Positions 18,516 through 47,629 of a DNA stretch of 64,000 bases are shown here, one piece after another; position 1 is the stretch's first letter, and each line of letters starts with the position of its first letter. The notes beneath the pieces were generated by a model. The model worked only from the letters and a program-made list of their open reading frames with translations. It did no database searches and was not told the origin of the DNA. Both the position numbers and the translations under genes were made by a program. The DNA lies in the IMG/VR virus record IMGVR_UViG_3300024999_000080, positions 1 to 64,000 of that record. One strand, given 5' to 3'. Source of the stretch: a virus.

Positions 18516-18592
18516 CTAAACAAATTTATCTCAATCATGAATCATTTTAAATTAAAACAAATTATAATATAAATATTAGGAGGATGAAAGTA

Positions 18593-22355: not shown

Positions 22356-22385
22356 TTGACTTATTATATCAATTTATGTTATTAT
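22356..22385 (+). promoter_or_regulatory. Sigma-A promoter of the NMNAT gene
   Basis: TTGACT (22356-22361), 18-base spacer, TATTAT (22380-22385), followed by an A/T-rich leader and AGGAGG. Confidence 0.65.
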
Positions 22386-22421
22386 AAATATAGAAATAAA
22401 TATTTTAGGAGGAGAAAATAT

Positions 22422-22973
22422 ATGAAAAAGTATGACGTAGGCTTATTAGTAGGTCGTTTTAATGTATTTCATATAGGACATAAATCACTTGCAGATTTAG
22501 CATTAACCATGTGTGACAGACTATTAATTCTTGTAGGATCTTCACAAGAAAGCGGAACATTGCGTAATCCATTTTATGTATATACGAGAATGGAAATGAT
22601 TAGAGCAATATATCCAGAATCTAATGTGATAATTAAACCATTGCCAGATTTAACAAATGAAAATGATATTACTCCAATTTGGGGTAAATATGTTTTACAG
22701 AAAACTTATGAGATACTTCAAAAATATCCAGATGCTATGATTTACGGGAATGATGAATGTAGGTCTGGGTGGTTTGATCCAGAAGATATCAAAGATATGA
22801 CTGAAATTGTTGTATCTCGTTCTAATATTCTTATTTCTGCCACAGAATTAAGACAACTCATGGTAGATAATAATTGGCAAGAGTGGCGTAAATACCATAG
22901 TCCAGAATTACATCCATATTATTATCCTTTACGATGGGAATTAATGAATTGTGTTGATTATAAAGCTAAATAA
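22422..22973 (+). CDS. NMN/NaMN adenylyltransferase-like nucleotidyltransferase
   Basis: 183 residues. Joins a mononucleotide to AMP from ATP to make NAD or NaAD. Residues 11-20 are GRFNVFHIGH (the family's GRFxPxHxGH), Gly-Ser-Ser-Gln around 39-42 and ISATELR at 138-144 form the nucleotide-binding signature of the NadM/NadR type. ATG 22422 follows AGGAGG. It is followed by a nicotinamidase-like gene, and the window also encodes NAD-dependent ligase, so an NAD supply role is plausible. Substrate preference (NMN or NaMN) cannot be told from sequence. Confidence 0.85.
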   Translation: MKKYDVGLLVGRFNVFHIGHKSLADLALTMCDRLLILVGSSQESGTLRNPFYVYTRMEMIRAIYPESNVIIKPLPDLTNENDITPIWGKYVLQKTYEILQKYPDAMIYGNDECRSGWFDPEDIKDMTEIVVSRSNILISATELRQLMVDNNWQEWRKYHSPELHPYYYPLRWELMNCVDYKAK

Positions 22974-22990
22974 AATTATTCAAAATGCAC

Positions 22991-23020
22991 TTGACAAACA
23001 ATCAATAAATAATGTATACT
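22991..23020 (+). promoter_or_regulatory. Sigma-A promoter with conserved leader (copy 2)
   Basis: TTGACA (22991-22996), 18-base spacer, TATACT (23015-23020). The -10 is within a small inverted repeat (ATGTAT / ATACAT). Leader shares AAAGGATGTGAA (23060-23071) and ACATAACTAA with copy 1. Confidence 0.75.
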
Positions 23021-23078
23021 TAATACATGGTTAAGTTAAAACATTACATAAATTATTGAAAAGGATGTGAATCAAGAC

Positions 23079-23102
23079 ATGATCAAAGAGGTATATACAT
23101 AA
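23079..23102 (+). CDS. Leader peptide MIKEVYT (copy 2)
   Basis: 7-codon frame at the same leader position as MGVKIHT at 18492, behind the same AAAGGATGTGAA box and ending in the same ACA-TAA-CTAA. It precedes the nicotinamidase-like gene by 70 bases. Confidence 0.45.
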   Translation: MIKEVYT

Positions 23103-23172
23103 CTAATTTACATTGTTCTCTAATCCTTATTAAATACAAAAATAAAATTATAATGAAAGAAGGAAATTAAAA

Positions 23173-24081
23173 ATGAATACACGTTATGAAGAAATCGTAG
23201 ATGTACAAGCAATTGGAGTAGCACAAAACACTCGAAGTCTTAATGAAATTCTTGCAAAAGCAAATCAAGAAAAACTTCAACCTGCATCTAAAAATGTTGA
23301 GCAAGTATTGGTAATCGGAATAGACATCCAGAACGATTTTTTAGAGCAGGGAGCTTTAGCAGTACAAGGCAGTCATGGAGATACAGAAAGATTTACAAAA
23401 TTCATTTACGACAATATGGATAAAATTGCTCAAATTGCTGTATCAATTGACACTCATAACCCATTCCAAATTTTTCATCCTTGTTGGTGGGTAGATGCAG
23501 ATGGTAACAATCCTCCTCCATTCACACCAATTACTTTAAAAGATTTAGATGATGGAAAATGGTTTCCTGTAGTAGATCCAATGAAAAGTCGTAAATATGT
23601 TGAAGGATTAGAAGCAAAGGGTAAAAAGAATTTGTTAATTTGGACATATCATTGTCTTCAAGGTACTCATGGTGCAGCATTAGAAAATCAATTTGCAAAT
23701 ATGGTTTATTTTCACTCAGTTGCTAAGAAAACAATGGTTAATCGAATTGTTAAAGGAACAGATTATTTTAGCGAGATGTATGGAATATTTGCTCCAGAGT
23801 TTGATGAAAAAGGATTTATTAACCTTGATGTTTTGAATAAGATGGCTAAGTTTGATAAAATTGTAATCGGAGGTCAGGCTAGTGATTTCTGTTGTTATGA
23901 GAGTATTAAACAGTTACTAGAGTTTCACAAGAGTAATTCTGAACTTTTGAAAAAGGTATTCATTCTAGAAGATTGCATGTCTGCTGTGATGGATACTCCT
24001 GAACAAAGTAAAACTCGATATGATGAATTGAAGAAAGTATATAAAGTTAATATTGTAAAATCAACAGACTTAGTTCTTTAA
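23173..24081 (+). CDS. Nicotinamidase/isochorismatase-like cysteine hydrolase
   Basis: 302 residues, about 100 longer than typical nicotinamidases. Catalytic triad candidates: Asp51 (IDIQNDF), Lys184 (RIVKGTD) and Cys230/Cys231 (GGQASDFCCYES). Metal ligands resemble nicotinamidase: Asp93-x-His95 (SIDTHN) and His102 (FHPCWW). Nicotinamidase would turn nicotinamide into nicotinic acid for NAD resynthesis, in line with the NMNAT upstream. The extra length lies mainly between residues 108 and 180 and at the N-terminus. Isochorismatase-type chemistry on another substrate is possible. Confidence 0.75.
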   Translation: MNTRYEEIVDVQAIGVAQNTRSLNEILAKANQEKLQPASKNVEQVLVIGIDIQNDFLEQGALAVQGSHGDTERFTKFIYDNMDKIAQIAVSIDTHNPFQIFHPCWWVDADGNNPPPFTPITLKDLDDGKWFPVVDPMKSRKYVEGLEAKGKKNLLIWTYHCLQGTHGAALENQFANMVYFHSVAKKTMVNRIVKGTDYFSEMYGIFAPEFDEKGFINLDVLNKMAKFDKIVIGGQASDFCCYESIKQLLEFHKSNSELLKKVFILEDCMSAVMDTPEQSKTRYDELKKVYKVNIVKSTDLVL

Positions 24082-24134
24082 TAGTTTGATAAGATATAAA
24101 AATAAAATAAATTTAAGAAATGAGGAATATTAAA

Positions 24135-24806
24135 ATGGCAGACGTAATGGATATTTTAGGTATGGATGAAATGGAACAAGAAAATACTTCTATGGACGAT
24201 CTAAATAGTGAAAACATTAATTTAATCTTTATTGCAATTGATGAATCAGGTTCAATGGGTGGTTACATTAATGATATGAAGAAAAATCTTTCAGAGTTTA
24301 AAAGTGCATTAACTGATAGTAAAGAATCGGATGAAATGTTAGTGGCTAGAGCTAATTTCCATGATAGCAACATTGATATTGGAGGATATAAAAAGATTGA
24401 AGAATTTGATACAGCTTATAATGTGTACGGTATGACTCCATTATATGATGTAGTTGTTGAAGGTTCGGAGAAATTAGTCAATTATATGACTTACTTAAAA
24501 AATCAAGGAATGCGTGTTAAAGCTGTATTTGCAGTATTCTCAGATGGAGAAGACACAAGTTCTAAAAACAGCATTAGTCAGGCCAAAAATGTTATCACAG
24601 ATCTGAATAGTAAAGAGGTAACGACTGCATTCATTAGTTTTGGTTCAAGTGCTATGAGAGAAGCAAAGAATATGCAATTTAAAAATATTCTTCAGGTTGG
24701 ATCTTCTGCTAGTGAATTGCGTAAAGCATTTGATTGTCTATCTAAATCAGTTATTGAAAGTTCAAAATCAGTAGTTGCTCAAGCAGATGATTTCTTTACA
24801 ATGTAA
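24135..24806 (+). CDS. von Willebrand A domain protein, TerY-like
   Basis: 223 residues. Complete MIDAS: DESGSMG (Asp36, Ser38, Ser40), the Thr in YGMTPLYD and the Asp in FSDGEDTSS. It has the cytoplasmic vWA form with no signal peptide. Together with the next two genes (PP2C, protein kinase) it matches the vWA-phosphatase-kinase arrangement called the TerY-P triad. ATG 24135 is used (GAGGA upstream) rather than 24120. Confidence 0.8.
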   Translation: MADVMDILGMDEMEQENTSMDDLNSENINLIFIAIDESGSMGGYINDMKKNLSEFKSALTDSKESDEMLVARANFHDSNIDIGGYKKIEEFDTAYNVYGMTPLYDVVVEGSEKLVNYMTYLKNQGMRVKAVFAVFSDGEDTSSKNSISQAKNVITDLNSKEVTTAFISFGSSAMREAKNMQFKNILQVGSSASELRKAFDCLSKSVIESSKSVVAQADDFFTM

Positions 24807-24823
24807 TATGTAATAATTTAATT

Positions 24824-24857
24824 GACTAGTCCTGTTTGAAATATAGCAGGACTAGTC
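24824..24857. promoter_or_regulatory. 11-bp inverted repeat (terminator or operator)
   Basis: GACTAGTCCTG (24824-24834) and CAGGACTAGTC (24847-24857), perfect, 12-base loop. No T-run follows. Each arm contains the palindrome GACTAGTC, so a dimeric protein could also bind. It separates the vWA and PP2C genes. Confidence 0.55.
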
Positions 24858-24874
24858 ACAAATAGGAGGAAATA

Positions 24875-25498
24875 ATGTTTATTAATAAAATTGGATATCT
24901 TCATTTAGAAAAAGGATTGAATTGTCAAGATTTTGGTTTTGAGAGTGACAAGCATAAATGTATAATGGACGGTTGTTCAGAAGGAAAACATAGCGAAGTT
25001 GGTGCTAAATTATTTGCACATATGTTTTCAAAAGGATTAGATCCAATTGAATGTTTTGAAAAGTTGTCTGGTATATTTCCTGATTACGAGGATATAAGAG
25101 ACCATATGTTATTTACTGTATTATTCGTTTCCCAAACTGATGAAGAATACATAGTTGATATTTGTGGTGATGGATACATAATTAAGCAAAAACTTGATGA
25201 TTCGATTGAGTATGAAAAAATAGGAGAAGGTAATGCTCCAGAATATTATGCTTATAATTTTGTTTCTTCAGATCGTTTGAATAAGTATAAAGATGGTGTT
25301 GAATTCAAACATCACCTACTATCTAAAAGCGAATATAAGGCCGTAGGAGTGGCATCTGATGGCTTAGATTACATTCTTAATAGTCCTTTTAAGGATGAGT
25401 TTGAAAAGCATTTAATAGGAAGAAAAGAATTTGCAATCCGAAGACTAATCAATCGAGAACATAAATATTTTAAGGATGATATTTCAATTGTAATTTGA
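24875..25498 (+). CDS. PP2C-family serine/threonine phosphatase
   Basis: 207 residues, a short PP2C. Metal-binding acids in order: CQDF, MDGCSEG (motif DG), CGDGYI, ASDGLDY and terminal DDISIVI. Such proteins remove phosphate from Ser/Thr. Its stop (25496-25498) lies just before the kinase gene's ribosome site, so phosphatase and kinase are co-translated. Middle partner of the TerY-P-like triad. Confidence 0.82.
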   Translation: MFINKIGYLHLEKGLNCQDFGFESDKHKCIMDGCSEGKHSEVGAKLFAHMFSKGLDPIECFEKLSGIFPDYEDIRDHMLFTVLFVSQTDEEYIVDICGDGYIIKQKLDDSIEYEKIGEGNAPEYYAYNFVSSDRLNKYKDGVEFKHHLLSKSEYKAVGVASDGLDYILNSPFKDEFEKHLIGRKEFAIRRLINREHKYFKDDISIVI

Positions 25499-25512
25499 TT
25501 GAGGTGAAAGTG

Positions 25513-27216
25513 ATGAATATAAGTGCTAAAATTCTAAAACAAACTCCATTAGCTGAAGGTGGAGAAGGTATTATATATGATTTAGGGGATAATGTTCTTA
25601 AGGTCTATAAAGATTCGGTTGATAAGCAAGAAAAATTAAAAAAGGTTAAATTGTTGATATCTAAATCTTTACCTTCAAATATTATCAAACCTATTGATAT
25701 TGCTTATGATTCACAGAAAAAGTTTATTGGTTATATTATGCCGAAAGCAGAAGGTGAAGACGTTAAGAAATTAGGCAATAAGAAATATGTTAAAGTAAAT
25801 AATATTAAAATCCAAGACATTAGTAAATTAGCATTAAAAATAAAAGAAACTCTCACAATTTTACATAATCAAAACATTCTTATCAGCGACTTAAATGATG
25901 GCAATATATTATTCACCAAGGATTTTGAACCATATTTTATTGATGTTGATAGTTGGTCTATTGATAATATTAATTGTACAGTTTGTATGGAAACATTTAA
26001 AGATCCTAAATTAGTTTCCAGTAATTTCACTAAAGATACTGATTCATTTTCATTTGCTGTGTTATTATTTAAGATGCTGACAAGACTTCATCCCTTCGGA
26101 GGAACAATGAATCCAGATATGGATATTATTCAAAGGATGAGTAAGGGCATATCAGTAATCGAAAATTCAAAAGTTATTGTTCCAAAGAATATTAATAAGT
26201 GGGAATTTATGTCTCCAAAATTACTTACGGATATGAGAAGTATTTTTGAAAAAGGAAAAAGGTTTTTAATAGATCAAAATTTGTTGGATTTTGCTTCAAA
26301 TTTGAAGTATTGTGATAAACATGAAGATTATTATTATAGCAAGTACAAAACGTGTCCTATTTGTGATGTAAGTGCTGTAATAATTCAAGCTCCTATACAA
26401 GTTGTTGGGAATGGATCTATTCCTTATATTGTTCTAATTGCTTCAAATGGTGTGAAAATGATATTAAATCTTGATACATTTATTGATGATAATGATTTTG
26501 TAATTCATAGCAGATCAAAGAAAAAAGTAGAATTAGTTAATGGTAATAGATATTATTTTTCTAATGATGGAGATATTGCTTTCACAGTTTCAAATATGGA
26601 TATTGGCGTTAGTAATCAAAAAGGAACATTTATATTTGAGAAAATTAATAAGAGTAATGTTGTCGTGAAGAATGATATTATTTACTATATTAATTCAAGT
26701 TGTAATCTTGTGGAATTGACTGTAGGTGATATTGGCAACTCATTAAGGGTAATTACTAAAACTTCTTTTAATTCATTTTTTGAAGTGTATGATAAAGACA
26801 ATTATCTAGTTTGTAATATTTATGATGGTTTTAAAATTGTCAACATTAGTGGATATAATTATCAGATTAATGACAATGATAAAATTGTTAATTATGGTAT
26901 ACACTTCGACACTATAAAGAATTTATGGTTATTTATTACTGAGGATGATAAAGGTAACTTTAAGACATTGATTTTTGATAAGAATAAAGTAGTTTACAGT
27001 AGCGATAGTATAAAGTATCAAACTGATCTAGGGAATTTATGTTTTAGTGGTGGGGTAATATTTAGCCCTAGTGATAAGGTTATTAGAGGATTTGGTTACG
27101 AGAAGAATGTTTATAAGGATTTTCCTTGTGATGTGGTTAATGATGGATCTAAGTTAATTAGAGATGGTAGCAAGTTTATTGTGATTAATGATAAAGAAGT
27201 TTATAGGTTGGGTTAA
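25513..27216 (+). CDS. Protein kinase with zinc ribbon and C-terminal beta-rich domain
   Basis: 567 residues from ATG 25513 (GAGGTGA upstream). Gly loop AEGGEGIIYDL, VAIK-like Lys in VLKVYKD, catalytic loop SDLNDGNIL (about residue 125), metal-binding DVDSW in place of DFG, then DTDSFSFAVLLFKMLTRLHP. Residues 266-285 hold a zinc ribbon (C-x2-H, CPIC). The rest is repetitive, beta-rich and may form a propeller. This kinase-plus-zinc-ribbon form is the kinase of TerY-P triads. It probably phosphorylates a partner such as the vWA protein, with the PP2C reversing it. Confidence 0.85.
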   Translation: MNISAKILKQTPLAEGGEGIIYDLGDNVLKVYKDSVDKQEKLKKVKLLISKSLPSNIIKPIDIAYDSQKKFIGYIMPKAEGEDVKKLGNKKYVKVNNIKIQDISKLALKIKETLTILHNQNILISDLNDGNILFTKDFEPYFIDVDSWSIDNINCTVCMETFKDPKLVSSNFTKDTDSFSFAVLLFKMLTRLHPFGGTMNPDMDIIQRMSKGISVIENSKVIVPKNINKWEFMSPKLLTDMRSIFEKGKRFLIDQNLLDFASNLKYCDKHEDYYYSKYKTCPICDVSAVIIQAPIQVVGNGSIPYIVLIASNGVKMILNLDTFIDDNDFVIHSRSKKKVELVNGNRYYFSNDGDIAFTVSNMDIGVSNQKGTFIFEKINKSNVVVKNDIIYYINSSCNLVELTVGDIGNSLRVITKTSFNSFFEVYDKDNYLVCNIYDGFKIVNISGYNYQINDNDKIVNYGIHFDTIKNLWLFITEDDKGNFKTLIFDKNKVVYSSDSIKYQTDLGNLCFSGGVIFSPSDKVIRGFGYEKNVYKDFPCDVVNDGSKLIRDGSKFIVINDKEVYRLG

Positions 27217-29357: not shown

Positions 29358-29774
29358 ATGCAAAATGTAAGTGTAAGTGTAAGTGTAAGTGTAAATAAAG
29401 TTTCACAAGAGATAAAAAGAGGAGATATTTGGTTAGCAGAATTAGAAGGAAGTAAAGGTTCAGAAATGAAAATGGTACGCCCCGTTGTAATCATTCAAAA
29501 TAATTTAGGGAATAAATATAGCCCATGTTGCACTATAATTCCATTGACTAGTAAGGTTGGGAAACGATGGATGCCCACTCACACAACCCTACATAAGACG
29601 GTTTGCTTATCAACTTTGAGTATTGCTCTCGCAGAACAGGTTGCAACGATTTCAAAGGAACGATTGACAAAATTTATTGGAGTGGTCGAAAAGTCAGAAA
29701 TAGTTGCTATTGAAGATGCTATTATGATTCAGTTGGGAATCAAACCAAGAAATAATATTGCGTATGCAAATTAA
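29358..29774 (+). CDS. mazF: MazF/PemK-family endoribonuclease toxin
   Basis: 138 residues. MazF fold with RGDIWLAEL, VRPVVIIQN (catalytic Arg), IPLTSK (catalytic Thr), a basic His-rich loop and ALAEQVATIS. MazF toxins cut mRNA. The N-terminal QNVSVSVSVSV is encoded by tandem AGTGTA units (29367-29395), absent from ordinary MazF. No MazE-like antitoxin is visible on either side, so control is unclear. Behind AAAGGAG. Confidence 0.85.
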   Translation: MQNVSVSVSVSVNKVSQEIKRGDIWLAELEGSKGSEMKMVRPVVIIQNNLGNKYSPCCTIIPLTSKVGKRWMPTHTTLHKTVCLSTLSIALAEQVATISKERLTKFIGVVEKSEIVAIEDAIMIQLGIKPRNNIAYAN

Positions 29775-29841: not shown

Positions 29842-31374
29842 GTGCTGTTAACAAAGACGCTAACAATGAAATGGAGTGCAAATAATAAGGTATGGTTTGA
29901 AAGTAAGGGATATACTTTTACTAAATGGAAAGATGAATTTGAGATTAAGGTGGAAGATTTATCTGATGGTTCTGGGGCATTAGTTGATGTCCAATGTGAC
30001 GGATGTGGAGAAATATTAACTAATATGAAATGGCAATCATATATAAGAAGTTCTAAGAAAGATGGTAAATATTATTGTAAAAAATGTTCTTGTAAATTAT
30101 TTGATGGTGAAAATCAGAGAAAAACTAAGTTAAAAAGTAGCAAATCCTTTTACGATTGGTGCTATGAAAATTTACCAAGAGCAATAGCAAATTATATATT
30201 ATCAAAATGGGATTATGCTTTAAATATCAATAAGAACGGCAATATAATAAGTCCTAAAGATGTTAGTTTTAGTTCTACAGGTTTTGACGGTAAAGGATAT
30301 TGGTTTAAATGCCTTAAATATCCTGAACATGGATCTGAACAGAAACGTATTAGTAATTTTGTTAGCGGAATGGGTTTAGGTAACGTTATTACTTGCATTC
30401 AATGTAACATTATTTCTATTACCCATCCACATTTAATAAAATATCTGGTAAATAAAGAAGATGCGAATAAATATTCTTTTGGTTCAAATGAAAAAATACC
30501 CATGAATTGTGTTAATTGTGGATATGAAAAAAAATTAAGTTTTAATAAATTAGTAAGTAGAGGTTTCCCTTGTCCAAGGTGTTCAGATGGTATAAGCTAT
30601 CCTGAAAAATTTCTATTTTCATTCTTAGAACAATTAAATTTATATTTTAACTTTCAATTAACAAAAACAACTTTCAAATGGTGTGGCAAATATAAATATG
30701 ACTTTTACATAGAAATAATTAATGGAATAGTTGAGGCAGGAGGTTTGCAACACTATGACGATACTAAAGGTAGAAATTGGGGAGCATCATTAGAAGAAAT
30801 ACAAGAAAATGATTTCGACAAGGAATGGATTGCTAGAATAAATAAAATTAAGAATTACATAATTTTAGATTGTAGATATTCTGATATGAAATGGATTAAG
30901 CAATCTATAATGAAGTCTAGGTTGCTTATATTAGGATTTAAAGAGGAAGATATCGATTGGCTAAAGTGTCATGAGGCGGGTTGTAATAGTTTGGTTAAAA
31001 TTTCCTGTGATCTATGGAATAATGGAATGAAAAATACATCACAGATAGCAGATATAATAAAGGTGCATAGGGCTACTATTGTAAACTACTTAAAACAAGG
31101 AGTTAAACTTGAATGGTGTGACTATGATCCTAAAATAGCGATGACTGGTAACTATAGTAGAAGTGTTATATGTATAACTACTAGGGAGATATTTAATTCA
31201 ATTGCTGAAGCAGGAAACGTTTATAAAACAGATTGTAGTAGTATATCAAAATGTAGTAAAAATAAAAAGAAATACTCAGGATTACATTCAGAAACGGGAG
31301 ATAAATTAAAATGGATGTATTTAGTAGATTATGAGAATATGGTTAAATATCAAAATAATAATAAACCTTCATAA
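29842..31374 (+). CDS. Free-standing homing endonuclease (EDxHD/Vsr-like with NUMOD)
   Basis: About 510 residues from GTG 29842 (AAAGGAG at 29826); TTG 29821 lies before that site. N-terminal zinc ribbon (CDGCGE, CKKCSC), a second ribbon pair (CVNCG, CPRC) just before the nuclease, then YPEKFL (Glu about 253), KYDFYIE (Asp about 287) and GGLQHYDD (His/Asp about 303), the order of the EDxHD/Vsr-like homing nucleases such as I-Bth0305I. The C-terminus (IADIIKVHRATIVNYL, VICITTREIFNSIAEAG) carries HTH/NUMOD1 modules. It sits beside mazF with no intron visible. Confidence 0.78.
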   Translation: MLLTKTLTMKWSANNKVWFESKGYTFTKWKDEFEIKVEDLSDGSGALVDVQCDGCGEILTNMKWQSYIRSSKKDGKYYCKKCSCKLFDGENQRKTKLKSSKSFYDWCYENLPRAIANYILSKWDYALNINKNGNIISPKDVSFSSTGFDGKGYWFKCLKYPEHGSEQKRISNFVSGMGLGNVITCIQCNIISITHPHLIKYLVNKEDANKYSFGSNEKIPMNCVNCGYEKKLSFNKLVSRGFPCPRCSDGISYPEKFLFSFLEQLNLYFNFQLTKTTFKWCGKYKYDFYIEIINGIVEAGGLQHYDDTKGRNWGASLEEIQENDFDKEWIARINKIKNYIILDCRYSDMKWIKQSIMKSRLLILGFKEEDIDWLKCHEAGCNSLVKISCDLWNNGMKNTSQIADIIKVHRATIVNYLKQGVKLEWCDYDPKIAMTGNYSRSVICITTREIFNSIAEAGNVYKTDCSSISKCSKNKKKYSGLHSETGDKLKWMYLVDYENMVKYQNNNKPS

Positions 31375-31422: not shown

Positions 31423-32043
31423 ATGGTTGAAACATTAATATTCAGTATTTTGTGCCTAAAAACAAAATTATATTTAAAGCTAGGCAAATTCCAAATACAT
31501 AAAGAATCATATCTAGTTAAACCAATACTAAAACAATGGAGTATTTATCCGGTAATACTTATGTCATTAATATATTGTATTTTTCAATATATGATTTTAA
31601 ACCATGATTATAGTTTTATACCATATCAAAAGATATTTAAAGATGCCTTGATCATGTCATACATAATATTAGGAGTCGATATTTTATTTAGGAATAAAAT
31701 ATATAAACCATTTATATTTGCTTGTTATAGTTTATTAAGTGGTTGTGGACTGAACGCTATTGTAATGCATTTTAACAATAAAAAGATGCCAATTTTCCCG
31801 ACATTTACTTATTCGACTGGCTATACACAGTATGATATGATTATAAATTCTTCTAAATATGGAGATTTTCATGTTCTTGGAGATCATACAACAAAATTGA
31901 TATTTTTAGCTGATGTATTCGATGTCTGTGGGTTTTCAATATGGTCAATCGGGGATATTTTGGTCAGGGTATTTGCTTTTATGATGGTATATTATTCAGT
32001 TAAAGAGGTTAATAAAATACATAAGAATAAAATTGTAAATTAA
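31423..32043 (+). CDS. DUF5317 integral membrane protein
   Basis: 206 residues, five or more hydrophobic segments. The motif NNKKMPIFPTFTYSTG followed by GDHTTKLIFLADVFDVC and WSIGDILVRVF is typical of DUF5317. The family is known near Agr-type loci in Bacillota, and here it precedes one. Function unknown. AAAGGAG is 15 bases upstream of ATG 31423, a long spacing. Confidence 0.65.
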   Translation: MVETLIFSILCLKTKLYLKLGKFQIHKESYLVKPILKQWSIYPVILMSLIYCIFQYMILNHDYSFIPYQKIFKDALIMSYIILGVDILFRNKIYKPFIFACYSLLSGCGLNAIVMHFNNKKMPIFPTFTYSTGYTQYDMIINSSKYGDFHVLGDHTTKLIFLADVFDVCGFSIWSIGDILVRVFAFMMVYYSVKEVNKIHKNKIVN

Positions 32044-32056
32044 TAAATAAATATAC

Positions 32057-32085
32057 TTGCATTACATTCTTGCATATGGTATACT
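32057..32085 (+). promoter_or_regulatory. Sigma-A promoter of the agr-like sensor/agrD operon
   Basis: TTGCAT (32057-32062), 17-base spacer, TATACT (32080-32085). Confidence 0.65.
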
Positions 32086-32125
32086 TGTTTTAGGTTAAGA
32101 AATGAATAAGAAAGAGGTAATACAT

Positions 32126-32941
32126 ATGCAAGGTGTAACAAATGCTTTATTGAATACTATTTTGGTAAGCATCCCAGAGGAATCATTTATTGTAATTATG
32201 ACATTGGTTTTTTTAAGAAGATTTGATATGTTGGACATCAGAATGTGGAAACACAGTTTGAAATGGATCATGGTTCCAACCTTGCCCGTAGCAATAATGA
32301 TAAACGTGTTTAGATATATAGTAATAATACCAAAACCATTAATGTCTTTAGCTTCATTTATATTAATGACAATTTTAATAATATTTATGATAATAAAAAA
32401 TAGTGTTGTTTTTGATAAAAAGTTATTATTTAAGACAATAATGTTTACAATATTAAGTTTTGTTGTGGTTGGATTAATAGAATTATTATATTATCCTATT
32501 TCACTCTCCTTGTTACATAAACAGATGTCTTATTTTAATAATAATATCCTATACAATCTTTTATTAGCAATTCCTACAAGAGTATTACAAATATGTATTG
32601 TGGCATTTATCATAATGAGGAAAAACAATGATATTGAGATAAATTTATTCAACACAATTGTGAGAAACAAGTTTTTTACAAAAAGTTTTATAATGATGAT
32701 AACTATTATGTTATTTGTAATAATTTATATGGGGAAGTTGCTAATGTTTGATAATATATTAGTGGAATTACAAGTCATTGATCAATTGTTCATAGTTTTA
32801 ATTGTTATAGTAACACCAATAATTTTAATTACTTGGTTCCTAATGTTTGTTAATTATTTATTAACAAAGGAAAAACAAATACAGCAGACTTACGAAAATC
32901 TTGTTATGCAAGATGACGTAATGCTTGATGTAGAAGATTAA
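32126..32941 (+). CDS. AgrC-like membrane sensor lacking a kinase domain
   Basis: 271 residues; ATG 32126 follows AAAGAGGT. Seven hydrophobic segments span nearly the whole chain, the layout of AgrC/ComD-type peptide-sensor N-termini. The chain ends in a short coiled tail (LTKEKQIQQTYENLVMQDDV) exactly where the phosphoacceptor helix would begin; no H-box, N-box or G-box is present. Being immediately followed by an AgrD-like gene supports a peptide-sensing role (inference). How it would signal without a kinase is unknown; a separate kinase or direct partner binding is possible. Confidence 0.6.
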   Translation: MQGVTNALLNTILVSIPEESFIVIMTLVFLRRFDMLDIRMWKHSLKWIMVPTLPVAIMINVFRYIVIIPKPLMSLASFILMTILIIFMIIKNSVVFDKKLLFKTIMFTILSFVVVGLIELLYYPISLSLLHKQMSYFNNNILYNLLLAIPTRVLQICIVAFIIMRKNNDIEINLFNTIVRNKFFTKSFIMMITIMLFVIIYMGKLLMFDNILVELQVIDQLFIVLIVIVTPIILITWFLMFVNYLLTKEKQIQQTYENLVMQDDVMLDVED

Positions 32942-32961
32942 AGTGAAAGGAGGTGAAATTA

Positions 32962-33078
32962 ATGAAAAAATACGCTATCGTCGCTGGAATGGTTGCCCTG
33001 GCCGCTACAATGTTTACTAATGTTTTTGCTTCTTGGTTGGGTGCACATCAACCAAAGTCCCCTAATTGCATGAAATAA
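32962..33078 (+). CDS. agrD: AgrD-like cyclic lactone autoinducer precursor
   Basis: 38 residues behind a near-perfect GAAAGGAGGTGA. N-terminal amphipathic leader (MKKYAIVAGMVALAATMF), then FASWLGAHQPKSPNCMK. Aligning on QP-x-x-P with Clostridium-type AgrD peptides (ring Cys seven positions before... Pro of QP), Ser24 takes the place of the ring Cys. The predicted ring is Ser-Trp-Leu-Gly-Ala, closed as a lactone, with or without a short tail. AgrB at 34.06 kb is the likely processing enzyme. A terminator follows directly. Confidence 0.7.
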   Translation: MKKYAIVAGMVALAATMFTNVFASWLGAHQPKSPNCMK

Positions 33079-33090
33079 TATTATCCTACA

Positions 33091-33120
33091 TATAGGGAGG
33101 GACTTCGGTTCTTCCCTATA
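33091..33120 (+). terminator. Terminator hairpin after agrD
   Basis: TATAGGGA (33091-33098) pairs with TCCCTATA (33113-33120); the inner stem GGAC/GTTC closes a TTCG tetraloop. The T-tract after it is poor, so readthrough to the next genes is possible. Confidence 0.65.
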
Positions 33121-33158
33121 ACCATAAAATAATTGTATAGTTAATATTTACATATTTG

Positions 33159-33188
33159 TTGACATTTTGCATATCTTTATAGTAAGAT
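33159..33188 (+). promoter_or_regulatory. Sigma-A promoter of the XRE-MazF/agrB unit
   Basis: TTGACA (33159-33164), 18-base spacer, TAAGAT (33183-33188). Confidence 0.65.
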
Positions 33189-33252
33189 ATTAATAAGGAA
33201 ATAATAAAAAATTATAAATATCTTATTAGAGATGAAGAGGAGATGTGTTATT

Positions 33253-34035
33253 ATGTTAAACAAATTCTTTACTAAAAACACCAATACCGAGGAAAATACC
33301 AAAAAAGATTTCAAAAAATTAGCTAACTATGTAATTCATGCCAAAGGTCATAGGACGATCAATGGATTTGCAGCAGATATGAAAACCGACTCTGAATATC
33401 TAACTCTTGTTGTTAATGCAAGAATAAACTCTTATCCAGATATAAAATTTCTTAAAACCATCGCTGACAATTCTGATGGTAGAGTATCTTTAAAGGATTT
33501 AACATTGGCGTGTGGGTATTCAAATTACACAAATAATGATATGGAACAGATAAAAAATATTGAAGTCAGAAGAGGAACTTTTTGCTATGTTAGTTTGGGT
33601 GATGTCATAGATTCAGAGTATGGGGGAAATCGATTATGTTTAGTTATACAAAATGATGTAGGGAATCACTTCTCAAGCACTTCAATTATTTTACCTCTCA
33701 CTAGTAGAAAACGTAGTAAGCTTCCCACCCACGTTGAAGTTGGGCCTAAAAATTGCGGATTGCCCCAAGAATCAATTATTAGTTGTGAGCAAATTCGTTG
33801 TGTATCAAAAAGGAGACTTAGCCAAAACGGGATAGTTCAGAAGGTTTCAGAATGCCCTTCAGAAATTATGTTATTGGTTGAGGTTGCCATGCTGAAGGCA
33901 CAAGGGGTTATTCATCTTAAAATGAATGAACAAGAAGCAGTTCAATATCTAATGAATATGAACAAGCAAAAAACATATCAGTATCAAAATAATTATAATC
34001 GTAGTGCAAGTCAGCAGGTTGCCTTTGCACGATAA
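33253..34035 (+). CDS. XRE-like HTH fused to MazF/PemK toxin domain
   Basis: 260 residues from ATG 33253, with AGAGGAG upstream. Residues about 15-95 (LANYVIHAKGHRTINGFAAD, then LTLVVNARINSYPDIKFL, LTLACGY) have an XRE-type HTH pattern. Residues about 105-225 are MazF/PemK: RRGTFCYVSLGD, GNRLCLVIQND, ILPLTSRKRS, GLPQESIISCEQIRCVSKRR. A Gln/Asn-rich tail follows. One chain carries both DNA-binding (antitoxin-type) and ribonuclease parts. Placed between agrD and agrB, it may be the output or guard of the peptide system (inference). Confidence 0.75.
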   Translation: MLNKFFTKNTNTEENTKKDFKKLANYVIHAKGHRTINGFAADMKTDSEYLTLVVNARINSYPDIKFLKTIADNSDGRVSLKDLTLACGYSNYTNNDMEQIKNIEVRRGTFCYVSLGDVIDSEYGGNRLCLVIQNDVGNHFSSTSIILPLTSRKRSKLPTHVEVGPKNCGLPQESIISCEQIRCVSKRRLSQNGIVQKVSECPSEIMLLVEVAMLKAQGVIHLKMNEQEAVQYLMNMNKQKTYQYQNNYNRSASQQVAFAR

Positions 34036-34059
34036 AAGAAAGGAAGATTAAATAATTAA

Positions 34060-34683
34060 ATGAGTTTTATTGAAAATGTTTCAAATTATTCTGCTAGGTG
34101 GTTGGCATCAAAAGTACCTAATGATAAATATCCTACAGTAGAAGATCAAATTGAGGTTTTTACCTATGGTTTTATGGTTATATGGGGATTTATATTTAAG
34201 ATCATATTGATGGTATCATTAGCATATATCTTTAATATTATAATCCCTATTATAATATTAACATTGACTTTCAGTAGTTTAAGAATTATCGCAGGAGGAT
34301 ACCATTTAAAGACCTATAATCGCTGTATGATTATTAGTGCTTTGCAATTCATTGTATCAGCATTAATAATCAAACACACATATCAATATTGGCCTATCCA
34401 AAACATCTATTCTCTGCTATTCTTTTGTGTATTAACGACACTATATATAATCTTCAGATATATTCCAAGAGACACACCCAACAAACCCATTATAGACCCT
34501 TTACAGATTAAAAAGTTTAAACGATGGTCATTATACTACCTTATCGCATGGACAGTTGTAATGACCATCTTCCTACTGTTTAATGTACATATAATTGTAA
34601 TTGCAAGTTGTTTTGGGTTATTGTTGGAGCTTTTTAGTGTGGGTAGAATAGGGCAATCGATATACTCTAAGCTAGATTCATAA
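34060..34683 (+). CDS. agrB: AgrB-family peptide-processing membrane protease
   Basis: 207 residues with about six hydrophobic segments. The catalytic signature RIIAGGYHLKTYNRC contains His82 and Cys89 at the H-x6-C spacing of AgrB, which cleaves AgrD and forms its ring at the membrane. ATG 34060. Transcribed from the 33.16 kb promoter with the XRE-MazF gene. In most loci agrD follows agrB; here a Shine-Dalgarno and ATG follow but the frame closes at once. Confidence 0.88.
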   Translation: MSFIENVSNYSARWLASKVPNDKYPTVEDQIEVFTYGFMVIWGFIFKIILMVSLAYIFNIIIPIIILTLTFSSLRIIAGGYHLKTYNRCMIISALQFIVSALIIKHTYQYWPIQNIYSLLFFCVLTTLYIIFRYIPRDTPNKPIIDPLQIKKFKRWSLYYLIAWTVVMTIFLLFNVHIIVIASCFGLLLELFSVGRIGQSIYSKLDS

Positions 34684-34703
34684 TTAAGTTTACTTATATC
34701 ATT

Positions 34704-34727
34704 AAAAGGAGGTGATGTTTTATGTGA
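34704..34727 (+). other. Vestigial agrD start downstream of agrB
   Basis: AAAAGGAGGTGA (34704-34714) then ATG-TGA (34722-34727): a strong ribosome site whose start codon is immediately followed by a stop. It matches the AAAGGAGGTGA ribosome site of the intact agrD at 32962 and occupies the usual agrD position, so it looks like an agrD remnant, lost when the following endonuclease gene arrived (inference). Confidence 0.45.
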
Positions 34728-34783: not shown

Positions 34784-35512
34784 TTGGAAACATATAAAGA
34801 TTTAACTGGATTAGTATTTAATAATTGGACTGTTCTAGAATTATCGAACAGAACAAATAAGAAAGATGATAGATATTGGAAATGCCGTTGTAATTGCGAA
34901 TATAAAACAATTAAACATGTAGCAGAAAGGGCATTGTCTTTTGGCACATCAAGAAGTTGTGGTTGTTTACTAGGAAAAATACCATCTAAAAAAATTGCAA
35001 AGGTTAAACCTGATAAAATATTAAAACCTCCAAAAGACAAAATAGTTAAACCTAAAATCGTAAAACCTTTAAAAATTCTAAAGAAAAGAATTTATAAAGT
35101 AAAAATATCTGATAGTAAAGAAATTAAAATATCATACAACAAAAGAATAATGAGCATTTATAGCGGAATGAAACAAAGATGCTATAACCCTAAAGCTAAA
35201 GGTTTTAAATATTATGGGGGCAAAGGAGTTGTTATTTGTGATGAGTGGTTAAATGATAGAAAGTTATTTTATAATTGGGCAATAAACAATGGATATTCTG
35301 ATGAATTAACTATTGACAGAATAGAAAATGATGGGAATTATGAACCAGACAATTGCAGGTGGACTACTTGGGAAGAGCAAGCCAATAATAAATCTAATAC
35401 TGTATATTATAGATATGAAGGAGAAATTAAATCTTCATTGGATTGGTGCAAAGAAACTTGGTTAACTTTTGAAACTTTAAAGAACATATTTGATATACAT
35501 ATCCTGCATTAA
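34784..35512 (+). CDS. HNH-type endonuclease with N-terminal zinc-finger domain
   Basis: 242 residues from TTG 34784. N-terminal DLTGLVFNNWTVLE, WKCRCNCEYKT and SCGCLLG form the Cys-rich domain of many mobile nucleases; a Lys/Pro-rich linker follows; the C-terminal half (MKQRCYNPKAKGFKYYGGKG, VICDEWL, LTIDRIENDGNYEPDNCRW) is the phage-type HNH-like homing endonuclease core. A related core occurs at 56.7 kb. A free-standing selfish gene inserted after agrB. Confidence 0.75.
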   Translation: METYKDLTGLVFNNWTVLELSNRTNKKDDRYWKCRCNCEYKTIKHVAERALSFGTSRSCGCLLGKIPSKKIAKVKPDKILKPPKDKIVKPKIVKPLKILKKRIYKVKISDSKEIKISYNKRIMSIYSGMKQRCYNPKAKGFKYYGGKGVVICDEWLNDRKLFYNWAINNGYSDELTIDRIENDGNYEPDNCRWTTWEEQANNKSNTVYYRYEGEIKSSLDWCKETWLTFETLKNIFDIHILH

Positions 35513-35685: not shown

Positions 35686-36042
35686 TTGAATTATTGTAAT
35701 ACTTCTAATGAACAATCCATATGGGTAATTAAAGACCAAGACGGTAACTTCGCTCACAGGAATAGCATTGGCAAGTCTGGAAAGAATACTTACCTATACA
35801 TATCTTTTAAAACATTTTCTCCTGAATGTAAGGGATATATAGATAAAGAAAGTGCTGAATCCGCTTTACTTGAGTTAAATAAAAGAAAGCATATCATGGG
35901 ATTGCACAATTCTTTTAATTTAGAATATAATATCTTAAGCGAAATGACTAAACTGCACAGGGAATTTCAAGGTGAGAACATGGTTTTATACGAGATGGCA
36001 AAATCTGATTGTTCAGATTTCCCAATATCAAAAGCGATGTAA
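35686..36042 (+). CDS. Hypothetical protein
   Basis: 118 residues from TTG 35686, behind AAAGGAG. N-terminal beta (SIWVIKDQDGNFAHRN) then helices. Has its own promoter and a hairpin after it, between the agr-like cassette and the lysogeny genes. Not recognised. Confidence 0.55.
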   Translation: MNYCNTSNEQSIWVIKDQDGNFAHRNSIGKSGKNTYLYISFKTFSPECKGYIDKESAESALLELNKRKHIMGLHNSFNLEYNILSEMTKLHREFQGENMVLYEMAKSDCSDFPISKAM

Positions 36043-36118: not shown

Positions 36119-36147
36119 TTGACATTAGAGTAATAATTGTATATAAT
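36119..36147 (+). promoter_or_regulatory. Strong sigma-A promoter of the YopQ-like operon
   Basis: TTGACA (36119-36124), 17-base spacer, TATAAT (36142-36147): perfect consensus hexamers. Drives the lysogeny-type genes at 36186-39449. Confidence 0.75.
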
Positions 36148-36185: not shown

Positions 36186-37544
36186 ATGCTTAAAGAAAAA
36201 TCAGTTGAATTGATCCAAGAATTAAATCCATTAATCGTTAAATATTCTAGCAATGACAAAGTAAGGAAAATAATTTTAGATGAGTTCTCTAAGAGGAATA
36301 TGAGTGGTCGTTTAGCACTTTCTATCCTTAATGAGAAAAGGGCATTATCAACATTAGACATTGATGAAGGTAAAGATTTAGTATTATTATTTGTTTTTAC
36401 AAATGCAATGTATGATGCATTAAATTTTAAAACAGATGATGATTCTCCAATTTTAGGAGATATCGATGAAGTATTAAGTATTGTTCCAAGCAATTTCTTT
36501 AATGAAATAGAAATGCAGAATATGGAAAATTATAAAGAGGAGAAAAGAGTAGAGACGAAAAAGCAATATGTGTTTCATAATATGCTTCGTGCGGCTGATG
36601 GGCATTATAAAGGTTTAGATCATGCTAAACATCTTGCAGAAATATATGCAGAAAATGAAATTATTTATAATTTTAAGAATCAACGTGATCCGCATATTGA
36701 TATTTATGGAGAAAAGAGAATTCAACTTGATAAAAACAAAGTAGAACGAATAATGAATAGACTGCTTGAAGGAATTCAATTTTCAGATGATATCAAATTA
36801 AATATACTTCATGATGGTGAAGATGAATTATATTTTAATGAAAAAACTGGAGATTTAACCTATATTTCTGGAAGTATTAATATATTTGATGGTTATCATA
36901 GACTCATAGCTAATTCTTTAGCTATCGCAAAAAATGCAGAATTAGAGTTTAACTGGGGGTTAGTAATTACTAATTTCAGTGAGAATAAAACATTAGAATT
37001 TATGACCCAAGTTAATGAGCAAAAACCCATGAAAAAAGAGCATATAAAGAACCTAGATTCTTCAAGATTGGGAAATGTTGTAGTAGATGCAATTAGAGAC
37101 ATTGGTACTAGTGAATTTGGTCAGAATATTAAAGAATCAGATGCAGAATTGAAGTTTTCTGGTATGACAAAAAAGTCTACTTTAGCTATTAGTATAGAAG
37201 AATGTTATAAGGAAAAACTAACCAATAGACTTCAAGCAAAGCCCATAGCAAAGCATATTGCTAACGTTATGGACTATATCATTGGATTGAATGTTGAAGA
37301 GTTTATAGAGCGTCCTGACGCTTCTCAGACATATATCAACCACAAGAATATGTTCTCTGGATATGTTGCTTTATCAGAAAGATTATATGATGTAAAGAAT
37401 TGGGAAGACTTATTAGAAGAAATTCTTAATCAAATTGATTTCAGTGTTAAAAATCCTTTCTGGAAAGATATTGGAATATCAGATTCCGATATGAAAAAAT
37501 CTACCAGAAATAACCTATATAAATTCTTTCAGAAATTAGTTTGA
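36186..37544 (+). CDS. YopQ-like protein with DGQHR-type motif
   Basis: 452 residues, close to the 460 residues of SPbeta YopQ. The central motif IFDGYHRLIANSLAIAKN with TQVNEQKPMKKEHIKNL resembles the DGQHR/DndB-like ParB-related fold. It is followed by a recombinase-fold protein, as in SPbeta where YopQ precedes YopR. Function unknown; the order supports a lysogeny-control role (inference). Behind AAGGGG TGAT. Confidence 0.65.
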   Translation: MLKEKSVELIQELNPLIVKYSSNDKVRKIILDEFSKRNMSGRLALSILNEKRALSTLDIDEGKDLVLLFVFTNAMYDALNFKTDDDSPILGDIDEVLSIVPSNFFNEIEMQNMENYKEEKRVETKKQYVFHNMLRAADGHYKGLDHAKHLAEIYAENEIIYNFKNQRDPHIDIYGEKRIQLDKNKVERIMNRLLEGIQFSDDIKLNILHDGEDELYFNEKTGDLTYISGSINIFDGYHRLIANSLAIAKNAELEFNWGLVITNFSENKTLEFMTQVNEQKPMKKEHIKNLDSSRLGNVVVDAIRDIGTSEFGQNIKESDAELKFSGMTKKSTLAISIEECYKEKLTNRLQAKPIAKHIANVMDYIIGLNVEEFIERPDASQTYINHKNMFSGYVALSERLYDVKNWEDLLEEILNQIDFSVKNPFWKDIGISDSDMKKSTRNNLYKFFQKLV

Positions 37545-37572: not shown

Positions 37573-38619
37573 ATGTCCATCAATGAAGTTAACGAAGAAT
37601 TGCAAGATGAAGAGGTAGTATTTGAGGTTGATTCAGAAGTTAAAAAGGAGTTTCTAGAAAATCAATTAAAATCTACTAGAAGTTTCTACACTTATGTCCT
37701 CAAAAGAGCAGATGAATTTGAAACACAGGTTGGCAAGAAAATTTATGACTTCAATATTGAAGATCGTGATGAAATGCTAACTGTTCAATTCAAGAATAAG
37801 AACAAATGGACGTTTCAATCTGCTTTATCTCCTTTAAAAACTTATGTTGACTTCTGTATATCTAAAAGTTTAGTTAGACATAATGAGAACAGATTTATGA
37901 CCATTCTTCCTGCTGATTATAAGGATTATATTAATGACCAAGCACAATGTAATTCTTATATTCCTTTATCTAAATCTAGAGAACTTCAAAAAAGGTTGAA
38001 AAATGATCAAGATAAATTGATTATAGAGTTATCTAGTTTGTCTGTCAGAGGAAGAACTGAAAAGGGGAATACTCTTGAAGAACTCGTAAATTTAAAGGTT
38101 AAAGATATTAAATGGAAGACTAAAGAATTATATCTTACTAAAAACAATGGTGAACAAAGATATATTGAAACTGATGATTACACATTAGGTTTACTCAAAC
38201 GAGTTATAAATCAAACTTTCTATGTCTCTAATAATGGGTTAAAATCTAAGAAAAATGAGGATGGTATTTATGAAGAGACTAATAGAGGTAGGGCTATAAG
38301 TCCGACTGAATATGTATTTAGAGTTCCCGGAAAGAACAGATTAGGTAAAGTAGATTATCAATTTTTCACTAGCAGAATTCAAAGGATGCAAGGTTGGTTA
38401 GAAGCTCCTTATTTGACTAGTTCGAATTTATACTTCTCAGCGATTTTAGACTATGCAAAAGAGAAGATGGATGAAAAAAAGGCAAAAGGAGAAAAATGTG
38501 AATTAACCAGAGAAGACTATATTCAAATTAATGAGCGATTTGAGTTTGGTGAAAATGGAGAAAAATATGTATTCAAAACCAGAGATTTAGTTAAAATGTA
38601 TTTTGGTAATGGAGAGTAA
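37573..38619 (+). CDS. YopR/MrpR-like tyrosine-recombinase-fold protein, catalytically degenerate
   Basis: 348 residues from ATG 37573. N-terminal SAM-like core-binding region (residues 30-105), then a catalytic-domain-like region: SVRGRTEKGNTLEELVNLKVKDIKW (residues 167-191) matches box I, including Arg169. At the box II position the sequence is LTSSNLYFSAILDYA (about 281-295), with Thr/Asn replacing the HxxR pair. An end segment KTRDLVKMYFGN has Tyr near the expected place. Loss of HxxR argues against integrase activity and fits the SPbeta master repressor MrpR (YopR), a recombinase-fold DNA binder. Confidence 0.65.
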   Translation: MSINEVNEELQDEEVVFEVDSEVKKEFLENQLKSTRSFYTYVLKRADEFETQVGKKIYDFNIEDRDEMLTVQFKNKNKWTFQSALSPLKTYVDFCISKSLVRHNENRFMTILPADYKDYINDQAQCNSYIPLSKSRELQKRLKNDQDKLIIELSSLSVRGRTEKGNTLEELVNLKVKDIKWKTKELYLTKNNGEQRYIETDDYTLGLLKRVINQTFYVSNNGLKSKKNEDGIYEETNRGRAISPTEYVFRVPGKNRLGKVDYQFFTSRIQRMQGWLEAPYLTSSNLYFSAILDYAKEKMDEKKAKGEKCELTREDYIQINERFEFGENGEKYVFKTRDLVKMYFGNGE

Positions 38620-38624
38620 ATATT

Positions 38625-39029
38625 ATGAAAAATACACTTTTAGAAATGTGGAAAAAATACAATTTACTTCTCTCTTTTAAAAATGAGATGAATAAACGCG
38701 GATATCCATCAAAGAGTCTGTATAGTATTGAAACACAAATGAGTGTTTTGATGCTATTGATTGAAATCGAAAGTATAAATGTTTTAGAAACCTTACTAAA
38801 AGGCAAAACTTATTTCAGATTATTAAAGAAAATTAACAGGGGATTTGAGTATTTATATGAAATTGTAGAATCTCCAGAGGACTGGGTATTAAACAAAATT
38901 GAAAATGATGTTGATGCATGGATTGATTCAAATGTATTAATTTTTACATGCAAAAGTTCTACTGCTGTATTTAGTAAGATATCACGCAAAAGTGATGGAG
39001 CAAAATATATTGATGGAAAATTTCAATAG
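38625..39029 (+). CDS. Hypothetical helical protein
   Basis: 134 residues starting 5 bases after the recombinase-like gene. All-helical by composition, no motif. Its position in the lysogeny block suggests a regulatory partner (inference). Confidence 0.55.
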   Translation: MKNTLLEMWKKYNLLLSFKNEMNKRGYPSKSLYSIETQMSVLMLLIEIESINVLETLLKGKTYFRLLKKINRGFEYLYEIVESPEDWVLNKIENDVDAWIDSNVLIFTCKSSTAVFSKISRKSDGAKYIDGKFQ

Positions 39030-39041
39030 GAGGTGTGCTTT

Positions 39042-39449
39042 ATGAATGTAGGGGAAAAAATTAGTCTATACAAAGAAAGATTAAATTTTAGAGATTATCA
39101 AGAATTTGGCAGGGCAGTTGGTATCAGTGGCAATTGGATAAATGAAACATCTAAGAAATCAGAAATTAAACAAATCAACGATTTGGGTTATTTAGTTAAA
39201 TTATGTGGATTTTTAGGCATCACGATAGATGAATTTTTAAGAGATGACATAATTGAAACAGATGAATCAATTGAACTTAATATTATTGATGCAAATACGG
39301 AAGATATTGGCATTTTGCTCAATAATATGATATTATTACTAGGGAAGCAGGGTATAAAAATAGATGGAGCGTTAATGAATGATAAAAGCAAAGAGATTTG
39401 TATAGATAGTCTTGCGGTAGTAAAAACACTAGTTAAACAGCATTTATAA
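39042..39449 (+). CDS. XRE-family regulator
   Basis: 135 residues from ATG 39042 (AGGAGGTG upstream). N-terminal HTH: KISLYKERLNFRDYQEFGRA then VGISGNWINETSKKSEIKQI, LGYLVKLCGFLGITIDEFL; the last block is typical of Cro/C1-type regulators. C-terminal 60 residues helical. SPbeta encodes an XRE protein (YopO) in the same neighbourhood. Confidence 0.75.
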   Translation: MNVGEKISLYKERLNFRDYQEFGRAVGISGNWINETSKKSEIKQINDLGYLVKLCGFLGITIDEFLRDDIIETDESIELNIIDANTEDIGILLNNMILLLGKQGIKIDGALMNDKSKEICIDSLAVVKTLVKQHL

Positions 39450-46870: not shown

Positions 46871-47629
46871 ATGAACGATGTACAAATTTATGAAAATACT
46901 GAATTAGGTTTCAAAGTTAGAACAAAATTAAATGAAGATAAGAGCATTAGTATGAATGCGGAAGATACTGCAATAGGTTTTGGATGGTCAAGAGAGAAAA
47001 ATGGTAAACTTTATGTAACATGGGACAGAATGAATGGATATATTAGTGATTTTGGTTTTCCACAGAAGTGTGGAAAGGATGATTACATACCAGAAAGCTT
47101 ATTTTACCTTCTTGGGATGAAAGCAAGTAGTGATTCTGCTGTAAATTATCAGAAGTGGTTAGCTATTGATGTGATTCCATCTATTCGTAAACACGGAGCA
47201 TTTATTGCAGATGGTGAAAATGTAGATGTTAATTTTATTTTAAATGAATTAAGATTCAGTATGAAAAGAACCATCAAAACTTTTACTAATGCAAATATAC
47301 AAGATGTTAAAAAGTTATATGAAGAATTTAGAGAGTATATAGACGTTGAATATAAATATAAAACTGATGAGAGGGTTGCTCGTTATAAAAGTGTCGAGAA
47401 GGGGTTAGATGGTTTACATGACAGATTAATTGCGGAGGATACCAGTAATGTTGGCGATTGCTATAATGTTAGAAAACTTAAAGAGAAGGTTATTATTGAT
47501 AGAACCACCTTAGAGAAAAGAATTAGTGGAGGCGAGAAAGCAGGAATGACCAGAGAAATAAGTAGGTTGAATGATGAAATTGAAAACATAAACTCCTCAA
47601 GTCAATACAGTGATTTAGAAAACGATTAA
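46871..47629 (+). CDS. BRO-N/KilA-type phage antirepressor
   Basis: 252 residues. N-terminal BRO-N-like region: AEDTAIGFGWSREKNGK, ESLFYLLGMKASSDSAVNYQ then KWLAIDVIPSIRKHGAF (about residues 90-112), the most telling motif. Basic/acidic helical C-terminus with a coiled coil. Such proteins bind DNA or repressors during prophage induction. Behind AAAGGAG. Confidence 0.78.
   Translation: MNDVQIYENTELGFKVRTKLNEDKSISMNAEDTAIGFGWSREKNGKLYVTWDRMNGYISDFGFPQKCGKDDYIPESLFYLLGMKASSDSAVNYQKWLAIDVIPSIRKHGAFIADGENVDVNFILNELRFSMKRTIKTFTNANIQDVKKLYEEFREYIDVEYKYKTDERVARYKSVEKGLDGLHDRLIAEDTSNVGDCYNVRKLKEKVIIDRTTLEKRISGGEKAGMTREISRLNDEIENINSSSQYSDLEND

Follow-up and report, generated by a model that had tools for sequence, protein, structure and literature searches.

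An Agr-type peptide cassette in the arbitrium position of SPbeta-like phages

Introduction

Does a phage that carries Agr-type peptide signalling genes at the place where SPbeta-like phages keep the arbitrium system use them to choose between lysis and lysogeny? The question arises from a stretch of 64,000 nucleotides (the window, bases 1-64000 of the 76.9 kb virus record IMGVR_UViG_3300024999_000080 from IMG/VR), in which an initial annotation had listed a DUF5317 membrane protein, a kinase-less AgrC-like sensor, an AgrD-like precursor, an XRE-MazF fusion and AgrB next to a YopQ-like gene, a YopR/MrpR-like repressor and an XRE gene. Among the peptide communication systems of phages, arbitrium is to our knowledge the only one whose part in the lysis-lysogeny decision has been worked out. 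Here we describe the agr cassette, its relatives and its position, and we lean slightly towards an Agr-type phage communication system that replaces arbitrium and has a helix-turn-helix (HTH)-MazF protein as its output as the best explanation of the locus as a whole.

Results and Discussion

The cassette and its conservation

Using Pfam, NCBIfam, PHROG and structure comparison we recovered every gene named in the initial annotation, in the order given there. The cassette consists of the following elements:

31423..32043, + strand: DUF5317 membrane protein, part of the cassette core (Pfam, E 5.5e-19)
32126..32941, + strand: kinase-less AgrC-type receptor with 7 helices and a short conserved C-terminal tail (AlphaFold2 (AF2), hhalign)
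32962..33078, + strand: AgrD precursor peptide (NCBIfam TIGR04223)
33031..33045, + strand: predicted 5-residue lactone ring SWLGA (Ser/Cys at the same position in 19 distinct phages)
33091..33120, + strand: conserved RNA hairpin after agrD (compensatory changes)
33159..33188, + strand: promoter-like TTGACA-18-TAAGAT ahead of HTH-MazF (TTGACAT in 9/10 aligned relatives)
33253..34035, + strand: HTH-MazF (HTH-PemK/MazF) fusion, proposed effector (PemK, E 4.7e-21)
34060..34683, + strand: AgrB membrane peptidase (Pfam, E 3.4e-35)

Relatives were gathered by scans with HTH-MazF and MrpR profiles. The cassette is conserved in 19 distinct phages of the SPbeta-like group, and since 18 of them are phages other than that of the window, a chance association of these genes is excluded. 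The DUF5317 gene is present in nearly all relatives. A near-identity search of the window against phage and plasmid records gave no match, a tblastn search of known phages with AgrB and the AgrC-like protein was likewise without matches, and so was a scan of genome contigs with HTH-MazF. Matches to HTH-MazF in phages and plasmids were essentially limited to the MazF half in the alignment.

The cassette takes the place of aimR

Downstream of the cassette follows the lysogeny module, separated from AgrB by two genes:

34784..35512, + strand: HNH endonuclease, a passenger (phrog_374, E 2.7e-58)
35686..36042, + strand: small conserved protein of 118 amino acids, upstream of yopQ in one subclade
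36119..36147, + strand: perfect sigma-70-type promoter of yopQ-mrpR (12/12 consensus matches)
36186..37544, + strand: YopQ-like protein (phrog_5732, E 2.7e-60)
37573..38619, + strand: MrpR/YopR-like recombinase-fold repressor (Pfam MrpR_N_CB, E 1.5e-12; profile match to SPbeta MrpR, PDB 8a0a, E 1.1e-22)
38625..39029, + strand: small protein co-conserved with mrpR in the subclade of the window
39042..39449, + strand: XRE-like regulator downstream of mrpR, conserved in the subclade (weak phrog_8 match, E 0.0013)

Thus the cassette lies close to yopQ as first described, but not immediately upstream of it, as the HNH endonuclease and the 118-residue protein intervene. The adjacent YopQ and MrpR homologues identify an SPbeta-like lysogeny module, and profiles of the window family match YopQ (E 1e-41) and MrpR (E 1e-37) of phi3T. 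A homologue of phi3T YonF with 36-37% identity is also present in three of the larger agr-bearing records. In phi3T the gene order is aimR-aimP-aimX-(three small genes)-yopP-yopQ-yopR, and in the agr-bearing phages the cassette is found upstream of yopQ-mrpR in every case in which the contig reaches that far.

A survey of viral contigs centred on YopQ returned 57 loci with aimR in 29, the agr cassette in 18, neither in 10 and both in none, counts that represent non-independent events given several duplicate assemblies and Bacillus loci that are close kin of one another. Its query alignment also included sequences from Geobacillus E3 and phi3T, which avoided seeding on the cassette alone, and still contained cassette-bearing sequences. 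In agreement with this result, none of the 20 records covered by our cut-off searches showed AimR (NF038310) above the cut-off. The locus shares with arbitrium the location upstream of yopQ-mrpR but not, judged by the AimR cut-off, the AimR-AimP pair, and membership in the arbitrium family was rejected for want of AimR. The synteny comparison with SPbeta-like elements thus bears out that the Agr-type cassette sits in the arbitrium position: both systems use the same slot and never occur together among the 57 loci. Relatives carrying arbitrium and lacking the agr genes, which had been named beforehand as evidence to the contrary, do exist literally in distant Bacillus phages, but they are alternative occupants of this slot. 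Taken together, the cassette probably acts in the lysis-lysogeny decision.

Further downstream, at 46871-47629, the window encodes an Ant-like anti-repressor (phrog_2011, E 4e-18), which might induce the lytic switch.

AgrD and AgrB are predicted to yield a five-residue ring

Against NCBIfam TIGR04223, AgrD narrowly passes with 19.9 bits at a cut-off of 19; an alternative start is the GTG at 32953. In the window the ring SWLGA is followed by HQPKSP with the PxxP recognition tail (PKSP), and the AgrD layout of amphipathic leader, ring nucleophile and PxxP tail is complete. The 19 phages have 19 AgrD rings, each different: besides SWLGA these are SWAFS, SWLFS, SWLFT, SMVVW, CRFWF, SAFLW, SMFFS, SWFFA, SYFIS, SWFWL, SAMWT, SAFWT, CFAAW, SWVIW, SAMWS, CLAAW, SAWTF and SLMWL. 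The first residue is Ser in 16 and Cys in 3 of them and stands exactly five residues before [HYFN]Q in 19/19, a fixed position that satisfies the requirement of a lactone or thiolactone ring.

The second component, AgrB, possesses the catalytic His and Cys of an Agr peptidase. Its residues R75, G80, H82 and C89 are invariant in 15 phages and have the same spacing as R70, G75, H77 and C84 of AgrB from Staphylococcus aureus (PMC10196373), and judged by these residues AgrB is catalytically intact. A reading of the cassette as decayed host genes was rejected, as the active sites are kept.

A kinase-less receptor co-varies with the ring

The AF2 model of the receptor (predicted local distance difference test score (pLDDT) 83) shows seven long helices, the last of which extends about 26 residues beyond the membrane, where the protein ends. 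The protein had no match in Pfam, and its model found none with Foldseek in the PDB or among viral structures. Its assignment comes from AgrC relatives that share its sensor and lack the kinase; we detected them in 5 of the 391 Clostridia genomes sampled, with few candidates scored per genome. In hhalign the phage receptor set matched this chromosomal set with 99.9%, and the chromosomal set in turn matched true AgrC-type kinases over their sensor part with a local probability of 94%, while DUF5317 and AgrB as controls gave about 0. The sensor part of AgrC is therefore present, and neither the AgrC-type kinase (HATPase_c_5) nor LytTR, the domain of the AgrA response regulator, was found above the cut-off in any of the same 20 records. 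Membership in the classical agr family was rejected on these grounds.

On four Clostridia chromosomes (L057, L058, L061, L062) the kinase-less AgrC genes encode about 305-320 amino acids and some are accompanied by agrB and agrD; an XRE gene adjoins them in L057, L058 and L062. These loci may represent a kinase-free bacterial Agr circuit.

In order to compare ligand and receptor we correlated sensor identity with the ring and obtained a Mantel r of 0.74, with a partial r of 0.33 (p 0.005) when DUF5317, HTH-MazF and AgrB were controlled for. The flanking yopQ does not track the ring (r -0.07). Single pairs of phages illustrate this: L015 and L017 share 91% of HTH-MazF and just 43% of the sensor, L011 and L012 share 82-83% of DUF5317 and HTH-MazF and 39% of the sensor, and L021 and L028 have near-identical rings and 91% sensor identity though their flanks agree to 58-80%. 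The pattern in these alignments is that ligand and receptor change together. From the anatomy of the cassette and this co-variation, peptide production and sensing appear well supported, and although the making of the peptide is something we infer, we are confident that it is very likely both made and sensed.

In seven phages (L017, L011, L024, L027, L012, L015 and L040) a second agrC-like gene lies between the agr cassette and yopQ. These paralogues form a separate clade and are exchanged independently of the first copy, as seen in L017 and L024 with 88% identity between the second copies and 27% between the first; possibly they are eavesdropping receptors.

To whom the peptide speaks is a question of its own. 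As proposed for phage phiCDHM1, peptide and receptor could tune Agr circuits or a kinase of the host instead of a decision of the phage. Clostridia are the likely hosts, the nearest relatives of AgrB and of the kinase-less AgrC are chromosomal there and stand beside ordinary AgrC kinases, and the second receptor evolves independently of the ring, all of which would suit such a role. Yet each phage has its own ring, matched by a cognate receptor that varies with it, as would suit private signalling between phages, and the cassette is fixed beside yopQ-mrpR in place of aimR, so that we regard signalling to the host as unlikely.

HTH-MazF as the putative output

The HTH-MazF gene follows directly after agrD in every cassette. 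Foldseek relates its product to MoxT/MazF from Bacillus anthracis (E 5.6e-12, 38% identity), and the catalytic Arg is kept in 16/17 and the Thr/Ser in 17/17 sequences, so that by fold and catalytic residues it is predicted to be a MazF endoribonuclease. For the N-terminus an HTH is suggested by the arrangement of predicted helices and by weak matches to PHROG and SinR; Pfam did not recognise it and hhalign against XRE sets was not significant. Of the XRE-MazF fusion proposed at the outset the MazF part is borne out, and the XRE label is weakly supported.

The hairpin between agrD and this gene shows compensatory double changes at 6/11 pairs. It was rejected as an intrinsic terminator, as it has no U tract, and no terminator-like site was found.

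Despite divergence of the sensor the receptor tail is conserved and follows HTH-MazF with a partial r of 0.40 (p 0.002) given the sensor, which falls to 0.25 (p 0.02) with all controls. Because several of the chromosomal kinase-less AgrC relatives adjoin XRE genes, an HTH protein is a plausible direct partner of the receptor. The receptor might instead pair with a host histidine kinase, or act as a sink or decoy for the peptide, with HTH-MazF as an independent neighbour. This would agree with phage records in which kinase and LytTR stay below the cut-off and with the many AgrC-type kinases in host genomes, but the constant place of HTH-MazF behind agrD, a tail that is conserved and follows HTH-MazF despite the diverging sensor, and the HTH genes that likewise adjoin the chromosomal relatives make it less probable still than signalling to the host.

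Arbitrium of phi3T exerts its effect through control of MazF, the activity of which promotes lysogeny (PMC10769878). A corresponding mechanism can be proposed here. AgrB would cut and cyclise AgrD to a five-residue (thio)lactone, and the exported ring would be sensed by the kinase-less AgrC-type receptor, whose short cytosolic helix would act directly on the neighbouring HTH-MazF in place of a phosphorelay. At low peptide levels HTH-MazF would be kept inactive and infection would be lytic; at high levels it would be freed or activated, and lysogeny would be favoured as with MazF in phi3T and maintained by YopQ-MrpR. What we infer in this model is the contact between receptor and HTH-MazF, the direction of the output and a role in lysogeny, and for HTH-MazF as the output we see about even chances.

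Upstream of the cassette lie two further genes:

29358..29774, + strand: small single-domain MazF/PemK-like gene (sMazF), the usual upstream neighbour of the cassette (PHROG MazF-like, E 1.9e-26)
29842..31374, + strand: homing/HNH-type endonuclease, a mobile passenger and not cassette core (phrog_559 HNH, phrog_9084 homing endonuclease)

Most relatives also show sMazF ahead of the cassette, and the endonuclease shifts its position among them. A MazF gene also lies close upstream of yopQ-mrpR in L153, L156 and L173, in which neither agr nor aimR was detected, which suggests that MazF belongs to the older components of the lysogeny module.

A MazF with retained fold and catalytic residues and a second small MazF upstream could also belong to a peptide-gated abortive infection or superinfection exclusion system, in which HTH-MazF would serve the prophage as a defence toxin under density control and leave its choice between lysis and lysogeny untouched. 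Against this stands the location of the cassette in the lysogeny module and its exclusivity with arbitrium, and the MazF branch of phi3T is itself a lysogeny output, so that both explanations overlap; a pure defence role seems to us improbable, to the same degree as signalling to the host. Captured host genes without a role (passenger morons) are by far the least probable alternative. Agr genes in a phage have been read as host captures before (PMC3901668) and passenger endonucleases surround the cassette, but this reading is already disfavoured because gene order, intact frames, active sites and the compensated hairpin are kept across highly diverged phages.

Several points weigh against an Agr-type system that acts on lysogeny through HTH-MazF. 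The model gives no explanation for DUF5317, the fusion has a weakly supported HTH, a MazE partner did not turn up, and two cassette subtypes partly drive the correlation between the receptor tail and HTH-MazF. Since yopQ and mrpR are served by a separate promoter, we see no obvious way in which the cassette would directly govern transcription of mrpR, and a search for MrpR-type operator repeats in the intergenic DNA of the window returned just ribosome-binding sites. Moreover, cassette-bearing loci served as seeds for the A1 and A2 scans, and every record is a metagenomic fragment. HTH-MazF is more likely to be the output than a direct transcriptional route to mrpR.

Other genes of the window

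Three consecutive genes at 24120-27216 resemble a vWA-domain protein, a PP2C-like phosphatase and a Ser/Thr-kinase-like protein, the last with a weak PHROG kinase match. Two adjacent genes at 22356-24081 resemble by eye a nicotinamide-nucleotide adenylyltransferase and a nicotinamidase, which suggests a phage metabolism of nicotinamide adenine dinucleotide (NAD). At 18584-20641 a protein of 685 amino acids matches phrog_1735 from end to end (E 2.7e-267).

Comparison with known systems

Should the proposed role hold, related phage lineages would swap their communication languages and yet keep the repressor module, and the receptor, which would sense a cyclic peptide with no histidine kinase, would be one of few such cases and has relatives on Clostridia chromosomes that are open to study. 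The shared MazF theme leads to a testable prediction about the way in which a count of peptides leads to lysogeny. That the cassette represents a second class of virus-virus communication of separate origin from arbitrium, with two unrelated peptide systems converging on one slot and a MazF output, is in our view a balanced proposition. In the open-access literature searched, a part of the whole, we found no published description of the phage arrangement or of the chromosomal kinase-less loci. A 2025 review mentions agr homologues in SPbeta-like phages, which the references it cites (papers on a Borrelia phage and on Listeria AgrA) do not support.

As in the arbitrium system of phi3T and SPbeta, the peptide genes stand directly upstream of yopQ-mrpR, the peptides are diverse with co-varying receptors and MazF is involved (PMC10769878). 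In contrast, arbitrium uses a linear hexapeptide that is imported to a cytosolic RRNPP receptor and a MazF of the host, whereas the cassette encodes a predicted cyclic Agr-type peptide, a membrane receptor and its own HTH-fused MazF. With staphylococcal agr (AgrBDCA) it shares the catalytic residues of AgrB and their spacing, the layout of AgrD and an AgrC-type sensor, but it is devoid of the histidine kinase and AgrA/LytTR, has mostly Ser (lactone) rings and adds DUF5317 and HTH-MazF. The Clostridia chromosomal loci likewise combine AgrB, AgrD and a kinase-less AgrC of about 315 amino acids, often with an adjacent XRE gene; they differ in a longer cytosolic tail, an XRE gene that is separate and not an HTH-MazF, and the lack of an adjoining phage repressor. 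The agr3 locus of the Clostridium difficile phage phiCDHM1 also has AgrB, AgrD and a protein named AgrC in a phage and no AgrA (PMC3901668). Its AgrC has the kinase part (HATPase), and a receptor domain has not been identified in it (PMC3901668), the reverse of the receptor in the window, and it is known from one phage with host-like genes and an endolysin gene downstream of agrD, whereas the present cassette is conserved, diversified and part of a lysogeny module. With the kinase and receptor parts reversed and a different location, the Agr-type module is indeed a communication design distinct from that of phiCDHM1, as had been supposed from the sequence of the window.

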